Shown here piece by piece: positions 13,342 through 16,503 of a stretch of 64,000 bases of DNA (within the stretch, counting starts at the first letter, position 1; every line of letters begins with the position of its first letter). The translations under genes were made by a program, and so were the position numbers. Origin of the DNA: Actinomycetota bacterium. GTDB lineage: Bacteria > Actinomycetota > Coriobacteriia > Anaerosomatales > Anaerosomataceae. The notes under the pieces were generated by a model. The model was given only the letters and a program-made list of their open reading frames with translations. It was not told the origin of the DNA and searched no databases. Location of the stretch: NCBI GenBank assembly GCA_009773565.1, contig WSXY01000002.1, positions 519,463-583,462 of the forward strand, given 5' to 3'.

Positions 13342-13368
13342 CTCCATACCGATTTGAGAGGTTGTAAC

Positions 13369-14520
13369 ATGCGCTACACGACCGCTGGAGAGTCTCACGG
13401 ACGGGCGCTCGTCGCGATTGTGAGCGATGTGCCTGCGGGCGTCTCGCTGGATGCAGCCTCGATTGATGCGGAGCTTGTGCGTCGCCAAATCGGCTACGGT
13501 CGCGGCGGACGCATGAAGATCGAAAGTGACCGCGCGATCGTCTTGTCAGGTGTGCGCTTTGGTCGCACGATCGGTAGTCCCGTTGCGCTCACAATCGGCA
13601 ACCGGGATTGGGATAACTGGACCGATGTCATGTCGGTCTGGGGTTCCGATGAAGATGTCGCTCGTTTGACGGCGCCGAGACCCGGTCACGCGGACCTTGC
13701 AGGGTGTCAGAAGACAGGCGCGGGCGACATTCGCGATATCCTTGAGCGCGCGAGCGCCCGGGAGACGGCCGCCCGCGTTGCTTCGGGTGCCATTGCCAAG
13801 GCCCTGCTCAGACATCTGGGCGTGAGTGTTGAGTCATTCGTCCAGAGCATTGGCGATGTTGCGCTTGTCGAAGGTCATGACATTTCGAAGGTAGATGCGG
13901 TTGTCGTTGAGGCGAGTGACGTTCGCTGCCCCGATGATGCAGTGGCTGCGCGTATGCGCAGCGCCATCGATATGGCGAAAGAGGCGGGCGAGAGCCTCGG
14001 CGGCGTCTTCGTTGTCCTCGCCAAAGGGCTCGTTCCCGGGCTTGGGGGATACGCGCAGGCCGATCAGCGGCTGGATGCCAAACTTGGATCGGCGGTCTTC
14101 TCGATTCCCGCAATCAAGGGTGTGGAGTTTGGAGATGGCTTCGCGCTTGCGGCCCGTCCCGGCTCTCATGCGCACGACGCCATTCGCTACTCACCGGATG
14201 CCGGTGTGCAGCGAGACACGAATCGTGCCGGCGGTCTTGAGGGCGGCATGACGAATGGCGAGATTCTCGTGGTGCGCGCTGCCATGAAGCCGATTCCTAC
14301 ACTGATGACGCCGCTCGCCAGCTTCGATCTTGTCTCGGGCGCTGCGGTCGACGCGTCGCGCGAGCGATCGGATGTGTGCGCGGTGCCGGCAGCGGCGGTT
14401 GTTGCCGAGGCCGAGGTTGCACTCGTACTTGCTAGCGCGTACGCCGCCAAATTCGGCGGAGACTGCGTATCGGACATGATTGCGGCCCTCGACGCTTATC
14501 GTGCGAGGCTCGCCCCGTGA
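13369..14520 (+). CDS. aroC: Chorismate synthase
   Basis: 383 residues from the ATG at 13369, which gives the family N-terminus MRYTTAGESHG; the frame is open 15 nt further upstream to a TTG that is not needed. Further signatures are RRQIGYGRGGRMKIE, the GRTIGSPVAL strand, APRPGHADLAG, ERASARETAARVA and the late RSDVCAVPAAAVVAEA. It converts 5-enolpyruvylshikimate-3-phosphate to chorismate using reduced FMN. It overlaps the aroKB start (GTGA) and so is co-translated with it. Confidence 0.97.
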   Translation: MRYTTAGESHGRALVAIVSDVPAGVSLDAASIDAELVRRQIGYGRGGRMKIESDRAIVLSGVRFGRTIGSPVALTIGNRDWDNWTDVMSVWGSDEDVARLTAPRPGHADLAGCQKTGAGDIRDILERASARETAARVASGAIAKALLRHLGVSVESFVQSIGDVALVEGHDISKVDAVVVEASDVRCPDDAVAARMRSAIDMAKEAGESLGGVFVVLAKGLVPGLGGYAQADQRLDAKLGSAVFSIPAIKGVEFGDGFALAARPGSHAHDAIRYSPDAGVQRDTNRAGGLEGGMTNGEILVVRAAMKPIPTLMTPLASFDLVSGAAVDASRERSDVCAVPAAAVVAEAEVALVLASAYAAKFGGDCVSDMIAALDAYRARLAP

Positions 14521-15371
14521 GCCATATTCTGCTGATAGGTTTCATGGGAGCCGGGAAGTCGCGCGTCGGAGCCGGACTTGCGGGGAAGCTTGGTCGCCGG
14601 TTCATTGATCTTGACCGAGAGATTGAGCGGATCGCGGGAAGAACCGTCTCCGAGATATTTCTGCGAGACGGGGAAGACGGTTTCCGGGAGATCGAGCACG
14701 TCGCGCTGGAGTCTCTGGTGGAAATACCGGACTGCGTCGTTGCGTGCGGCGGCGGCATCGTCTTGCGAGATGAGAACAGGGCGCTTCTCAAGCGTTTAGG
14801 GAGGGTCGCGTATCTTGCTGTGTCCGCGGAAGAGGCGATCGCGCGCATCGGAGATACTGCGGGTCGTCCACTGCTCGCCGGTGACGCCGCTCAGCTCGCG
14901 CCAAGAATCCTTGAGGCACGTTTATCGCTCTATCGCGCGGTTGCCGAAATCACGATCGATACGAACGGTCGCGGTGTCGATGAGGTACTCGCCGAACTGC
15001 TCGAGGCGCTCGACTCCGCAGTGATCACGAGAGTCAGCGTTCGAACGAACCCCGCGTATGACATCATCGTTGCCCACGGTTTGATGGCCGAGATGGGGCA
15101 GATCATCACCGATGTTGTCGGCGCGAAGCGATATGTCGTTGTGACCGATGCCACGGTGGGGCCTCTTTACGCGGATTCGCTTCTCGAAGGGCTCCGTTGC
15201 GGCGGCGTCGTTGCCGAGTGTATAGCGGTGAAAGAGGGCGAGGAGTCCAAGAACTGGGGCACAGCTGGTGAGCTCGTCGAGCGCATGGCTCAGGCCCGTC
15301 TCGGACGGGACGGTGCGGTTGTTGCGCTGGGCGGCGGTGTCGTTGGGGATCTTGCGCTCGATCGGCGGTAA
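14517..15371 (+). CDS. aroK: AroK-AroB fusion: intact shikimate kinase domain, then DHQ synthase cut short by a lesion
   Basis: Starts at GTG overlapping the aroC stop. Residues 1-~165 are a complete shikimate kinase: P-loop GFMGAGKS, DLDREIE, the FRxxE segment (DGFREIEHVALE), CGGGIV and a lid around GRPLL. From ~residue 168 the protein is 3-dehydroquinate synthase (YDIIVAHGLM, VVTDATVGPLY, GEESKNWGT, ALGGGVVGDLA). At position 15357 the AroB sequence breaks: GDLA is followed by LDRR and a stop, and the rest of AroB resumes one frame over at 15358. About 26 codons (the segment normally holding the PTTLLAQVDS part) are missing, a net loss of about 77 bp. The kinase half could still work; the synthase half should not. 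AroKB fusions are known in several bacteria. A sequencing or assembly deletion cannot be excluded. Confidence 0.85.
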   Translation: MSHILLIGFMGAGKSRVGAGLAGKLGRRFIDLDREIERIAGRTVSEIFLRDGEDGFREIEHVALESLVEIPDCVVACGGGIVLRDENRALLKRLGRVAYLAVSAEEAIARIGDTAGRPLLAGDAAQLAPRILEARLSLYRAVAEITIDTNGRGVDEVLAELLEALDSAVITRVSVRTNPAYDIIVAHGLMAEMGQIITDVVGAKRYVVVTDATVGPLYADSLLEGLRCGGVVAECIAVKEGEESKNWGTAGELVERMAQARLGRDGAVVALGGGVVGDLALDRR

Positions 15372-16035
15372 GACGGGCGTTGATCTCGCGTCAGGCAAGA
15401 ACCTAGCGGGTGCGTTTTGGCAGCCAGCGCTCGTGCTCTCAGATACATCGCTCCTACGCTCACTCCCTGATACCGAGTGGGTGAACGGGCTCGTTGAGGT
15501 CGCAAAGACAGCGCTGCTGGCTGGCGAGAAGGAGACCGTTGTCCTCGAGGCAAACGCTCGACATCTTGTCGCCCGTGACGACGTTGCCGTTCTCGACACC
15601 GTTGTCGCCTGCGCGCGGTTTAAGGCATCGGTTGTCGGAGATGATGAGCGGGAGTCGGGACGAAGGGAATGTCTCAACTTCGGCCATACGCTCGGCCACG
15701 CACTTGAGAACGTTCTCGGCTACGGAACCATTTCTCACGGTAGAGCGGTCGGCCTTGGAATACGCTTCGCTGCGCGACTGGCCGAGGCTGCTATCGGGTC
15801 CTCACCACTCCTGACGGCCCGGGTCGATGCACTGCTCGACAGTCTCGGTGCGTATGCGATACCGATCGGGTCGTGCAGTGCAGAGCAGTTGGTTGATGCA
15901 ATGCTTTCAGACAAGAAGACGCGCGGTGGCATCCTCAGGTTCATCCTCATGCGGGCGCCGGGTGAGTGGGAAGTTGTGCCGCTTGAGGTAGATATGGTCA
16001 AGATGGAGCTAGAGCGTATGCTTCGCGATGAGTAG
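15268..16035 (+). pseudogene. aroB: C-terminal remainder of 3-dehydroquinate synthase (AroB), out of frame
   Basis: The open frame begins at 15268, but AroB similarity starts only at 15358 (SIGGKTGVDLASGKNLAGAFWQP); the first 30 residues are an out-of-frame reading of the upstream half. The rest is typical AroB: NGLVEVAKTALL, the zinc-ligand region ECLNFGHTLGHALEN, GRAVGLGIRFAARLAE and DKKTRGGILRFILM. Together with the AroK-AroB frame ending at 15371 it would form one fused protein if about 77 bp were restored. As it stands, neither piece has a full active site. The flanking aroC and aroQ are intact, so either the lesion is recent, another synthase exists elsewhere, or the deletion is an artefact. 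Confidence 0.85.
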
Positions 16036-16041
16036 GCGGGA

Positions 16042-16503
16042 GTGGTTTCTTTGAAGCGGATTCTGGTGGTTAATGGACCGAATCTCAATCTACTCGGAAG
16101 GCGCGAGCCGGAAGTCTACGGCATGCGCACCCTTGGAGACATCGAGACGTCGGTGATTCAACTTGCTGATGAGTTGGGTGTCGAGGTGGCCTTCTACCAG
16201 TCAAACCACGAAGGCGCCATCATCGACCGTCTCCAGGCGGCCATTGATGACGCCGACGGCATCGTGATCAACCCGGGAGCGCTGACGCACTACTCATACG
16301 CTCTGCGCGACGCAATCTCGGCGATGGGTATGCCGGTGGTCGAGGTCCATATGAGCAACATCCATGGCCGTGAGTCATTCCGTGAACGTAGTGTGACGGC
16401 GTCCGTCTGCGCAGGGCAGGTCAGCGGCTTCGGCGCTGCGTCGTATGGGATCGGTCTCAGAGCGCTTGTCGAGGCCCTGCGGGAGTCCGCAGATGAACGC
16501 TGA
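16042..16503 (+). CDS. aroQ: 3-dehydroquinate dehydratase, type II
   Basis: About 150 residues. The active-site signatures of type II dehydroquinase are all present: [17 protein letters not shown] (catalytic Tyr and Arg), [29 protein letters not shown] and [18 protein letters not shown]. The GTG at 16042 sits inside the purine-rich ribosome site; the TTG at 16051, giving [11 protein letters not shown] with GGGAG 8 nt upstream, is the likelier start. It forms a dodecamer that dehydrates 3-dehydroquinate in the shikimate pathway. It follows the broken aroKB by 6-15 nt. Confidence 0.95.

Follow-up and report, generated by a model that had tools for sequence, protein, structure and literature searches.

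The aroK-aroB locus

The window analysed here, a 64-kb stretch of DNA, is part of a 593-kb scaffold (C12) in a 2.27-Mb genome of 25 contigs that is 98.5% complete and 0.5% contaminated. It carries a fused aroK-aroB gene on the plus strand (14517-16035), flanked on that strand by aroC for chorismate synthase (13354-14520; PF01264, E 9e-110) and aroQ for type II dehydroquinase (16042-16503; PF01220, E 3e-58), both intact as originally predicted. The fused gene begins with a GTG at 14517 that overlaps the end of aroC, and its shikimate kinase domain (14517-15011) is a full-length match to PF01202 (residues 10-165, E 9e-46).

The AroB frame is broken at 15356/15357. The first open reading frame (14517-15371) encodes the shikimate kinase and the N-terminal part of AroB (15057-15356) as far as GGGVVGDLA, the last in-frame codon being GCG at 15354-15356; an out-of-frame tail (15357-15371) then reads LDRR and ends in a premature stop at 15369-15371. 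The C-terminal part, open and conserved, continues in the next frame from SIGGKTG at 15358 to 16035 and also matches PF24621. Translation of both frames therefore bears out the jump from GDLA to SIGGKTG at 15356/15358 on which the original prediction was built. The NCBIfam aroB model TIGR01357 matches in two pieces, positions 1-98 and 125-332, so that 26 positions (99-124) are missing, including the conserved PTTLLAQVDS core; PF01761 is likewise matched in two pieces (2-46 and 72/73-113). The TIGR01357 pieces, in different frames, score 58 and 195 bits and do not reach the curated cut-off of 305 bits, compared with 349 bits for the orthologue of the relative G008, and there is no continuous frame above the curated score that would mark a functional type I DHQ synthase. 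The junction sequence is single copy in the assembly and is therefore not an artefact of how the window was cut.

Comparison with relatives and structures

The nearest named relatives are uncultured Coriobacteriia/Actinobacteria metagenome-assembled genomes (MAGs). In all 45 of the relative loci listed, a few of them from genomes represented twice, the interval GGG..GD..GGKT spans 41 codons (123 bases); here it spans 46 bases and is exactly 77 bp shorter, in agreement with the 26 or so codons and the net loss of approximately 77 bp first estimated. The stretch lost corresponds to GFxAAxYxRGxxxxQVPTTLLAQVDS of the relatives. The PTTLLAQVDS segment before GGKT is present in every one of those 45 loci, so the suggested comparison with relatives has produced no orthologue with the same gap among them, and 25 of 26 genomes from its taxonomic family show an unbroken PF01761 match.

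Presumably the lost segment links the NAD-binding GGG motif with GGKT and contributes residues of the active site. Judged from the sequence, an AroB without this segment and out of frame should not work. That the two halves, both open and conserved, work together as a split or frameshifted enzyme able to do without the segment is scarcely credible: the segment is missing in no relative compared, the solved DHQ synthases 3okf, 3zok, and 6lk2 align across it without a gap, and frameshifting could not restore the missing residues.

The two halves match AroB well, as first claimed, with a divergence near that of intact orthologues. Identity of the N-terminal part to three outgroups is 44/38/39%, compared with 40/41/47% for G008, and that of the C-terminal part is 61/59/57%, compared with 63/58/57%. 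Both halves are thus about as conserved as intact orthologues, with no sign of faster evolution.

The aromatic pathway elsewhere in the genome

Two copies of DAHP synthase are present, aroE lies approximately 2 kb before the window, tyrA is on contig C17 between a DAHP synthase and aroA, and trpC, trpF, trpB, and trpA lie together on contig C14. All of these, as well as aroC and aroQ, are full-length matches. Neither relaxed constraint nor decay of the gene or its partners was seen, a result that a very recent lesion would also give. The normal divergence of the AroB halves and the presence of the rest of the pathway together indicate that the lesion is either very recent or not real.

The second DHQ synthase offered as one explanation in the original prediction was not found: a profile search of the 98.5%-complete assembly gave no other PF01761 and no archaeal PF01959. 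A search for the missing PTTLLAQVDS piece elsewhere in the assembly or on another contig, run without a positive control, gave no match, and no plasmid records were found near the window DNA. A different enzyme could make 3-dehydroquinate and render AroB dispensable, whether a second AroB, an archaeal-type DHQ synthase, or a novel replacement. The 1.5% completeness gap leaves some room for one and homology is blind to an enzyme of unknown type, but given the profile results and the two copies of DAHP synthase, which supplies the substrate for the classical route, such a replacement is very improbable.

Alternatively, the 77-bp deletion may be real and may have arisen very recently in the strain or population that was sequenced. 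AroB would then be dead and no 3-dehydroquinate made, the cell would draw aromatic amino acids or some later intermediate from its community, and the other pathway genes would not yet have decayed. In favour of this, the lesion is clean and single copy, no substitute enzyme was found, and incomplete shikimate pathways have a precedent, one or two steps being absent from 16 of 147 free-living bacteria (11%; PMC3018139). Against this, every downstream gene tested is intact and evolution is not accelerated, and three unrelated genes of the same scaffold have lost stretches within an equally narrow range of sizes, with none of the point lesions expected from true decay. An interrupted pathway, also put forward originally, is accordingly possible but less likely than an error, and a real deletion is rated here as rather unlikely.

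Other short deletions on the scaffold

The survey for further lesions extended over the whole of C12 and portions of eleven further contigs; approximately 1.0 Mb, less than half of the assembly, was compared, and approximately 694 kb was placed against 727 reference open reading frames. Besides the aroB junction (C12 ~534818, equal to window position 15356), three more frame-breaking short deletions were found, all on C12 and all in genes whose copies in relatives are whole. A DsrK/HdrD-like Fe-S protein gene (378765-379959, minus strand) has lost 83 bp near its C-terminus, at a junction at ~378867; the lost segment is kept in 15 relative loci. An SbcC/YhaN-like AAA ATPase gene (178028-180641, plus strand) has lost 50 bp at ~180258, and a glycosyltransferase gene (231483-232522, plus strand) has lost 70 bp at ~231869. 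A DsrM-like (nitrate reductase gamma) gene directly adjoins the broken DsrK/HdrD-like gene, and the orthologous glycosyltransferase of the relative G007 (contig C21, 30476-31600) contains one in-frame TAG.

Among the 727 placed open reading frames, no conserved gene had a convincing nonsense lesion or frameshift of 1-2 bp. Many of the apparent stops and minor splits that the surveys produced were dismissed as antisense open reading frames, upstream extensions, or the rRNA region, and a radical-SAM gene with an in-frame gap of 96 bp was set aside because the gap lies in a variable N-terminal region. Compared with the colinear relatives G008 and G015, no window gene other than aroB was seen to be broken. 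The reverse survey of G008 (598 kb) gave no deletions of the 50-83 bp class where three to four were expected, which is statistically weak, and four against none is in itself a small contrast. More weight falls on the narrow range of sizes. Real gene decay would be expected to leave point lesions and a broad range of sizes, and a technical process bounded by read length fits better. With four losses of 50-83 bp in unrelated genes and nothing smaller or larger, the pattern points to one technical cause rather than to gene decay.

Junction sequences and scaffold gaps

The original prediction had also offered, as one option, that the assembly collapsed this spot. An error of assembly or sequencing is indeed the best supported reading, because three similar short deletions share the scaffold, but collapse is the wrong word since no repeat flanks the aroB site for an assembler to collapse; only unrelated short repeats occur nearby. 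At the aroB junction the overlap with the relatives' sequence is at most approximately one base, and the lack of a repeat or long microhomology to explain a mis-join weighs against an error. Two of the junctions coincide with inverted repeats, sites at which real deletions also arise. The aroB junction is inside the right arm (15353-15361) of a 9-bp inverted repeat whose left arm is at 15277-15285, a position equalled by 1.1% of simulated junctions, and a 14-bp palindrome directly adjoins the DsrK-like junction (0.4% of simulated junctions); both measures were picked after looking at the junctions. Such positions suit deletion by replication slippage, yet hairpins can cause both errors and real deletions, so the inverted repeats do not tell them apart. 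A living population in which a real process deletes 50-83 bp at inverted repeats, and which had just lost its DHQ synthase, the DsrK-like subunit, and two other genes and depended on its neighbours for aromatics, is decidedly unlikely.

The 8-mer CTCGATCG is common to the first and second junctions (aroB and DsrK-like) and CGTCGCG to the third and fourth (AAA ATPase and glycosyltransferase). As a shared junction signal CTCGATCG was rejected as chance, being not enriched in the window and lying, at the first junction, wholly on the native right flank. Each of the four junctions holds a short CG-rich palindrome; the palindromes and the shared words were noticed after the fact. Elsewhere, C12 contains a run of 43 N, an estimated gap, at 292420-292462 inside the inverted repeat GGTGGCGGGG...CCCCGCCAC; the presence of at least one gap in this scaffold favours an assembly error. 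A run of 2500 N beside rRNA genes (454963-457462) may be masking by the data holders.

Origin and significance of the lesion

The 77-bp gap is probably a local error of assembly or reads, and the organism's own fused AroK-AroB would then be ordinary and intact. Four frame-breaking deletions, none of them in the compared relatives, the open state and normal divergence of both AroB halves, and the intact rest of the pathway support this reading of the sequence. One technical process may have dropped a stretch shorter than a read at no fewer than four sites of the scaffold (50, 70, 77, and 83 bp); candidate steps are a wrongly closed contig join, a chimeric read where coverage is thin, or an artefactual deletion at a hairpin. 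Because the four sizes differ, no single k-mer overlap accounts for all of them. A lost overlap at 77, a common final SPAdes k-mer, was accordingly rejected as the sole cause once the losses of 50, 70, and 83 bp appeared. A generally error-prone assembly with many small indels was also rejected, as the other window genes align in frame to G008 and G015.

The aroB lesion is most likely not a real biological feature, and one broken gene is poor ground for inferring auxotrophy. Automated annotation would label aroB and three other genes as pseudogenes, and the shikimate pathway might then be reported as incomplete. What is useful is the recurrence: short frame-breaking deletions that recur in unrelated genes offer other users of the genome a cheap check that needs no reads, and caution is due with the pseudogenes of assembly GCA_009773565.1.

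Comparison with known systems

Fused AroK-AroB proteins, for which NCBIfam has the bifunctional models PRK14021 and PRK13951, are found in Coriobacteriia/Actinobacteria MAGs (for example, loci L023-L030, with TIGR01357 aroB and PF01202). The fusion is the same here, the gene order aroC-aroKB-aroQ-pepQ-efp is identical, and the C-terminal part of AroB shares 57-67% identity with the MAG fusions. Unlike those, the gene here is without 77 bp at the GDLA/SIGG junction, out of frame, and below the cut-off as two pieces. The incomplete shikimate pathways of free-living bacteria (PMC3018139) resemble this case in that one step is missing and the rest of the pathway is present; they differ in that here there is a single short deletion, no other sign of decay, and comparable damage to three unrelated genes. 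Wrong joins over short regions have been documented in metagenome assemblies (PMC5079060), which favours an error here. As seen in the assembled sequence, the C12 lesions are like these local join errors in being short, local, on a scaffold, and recurrent in unrelated genes.
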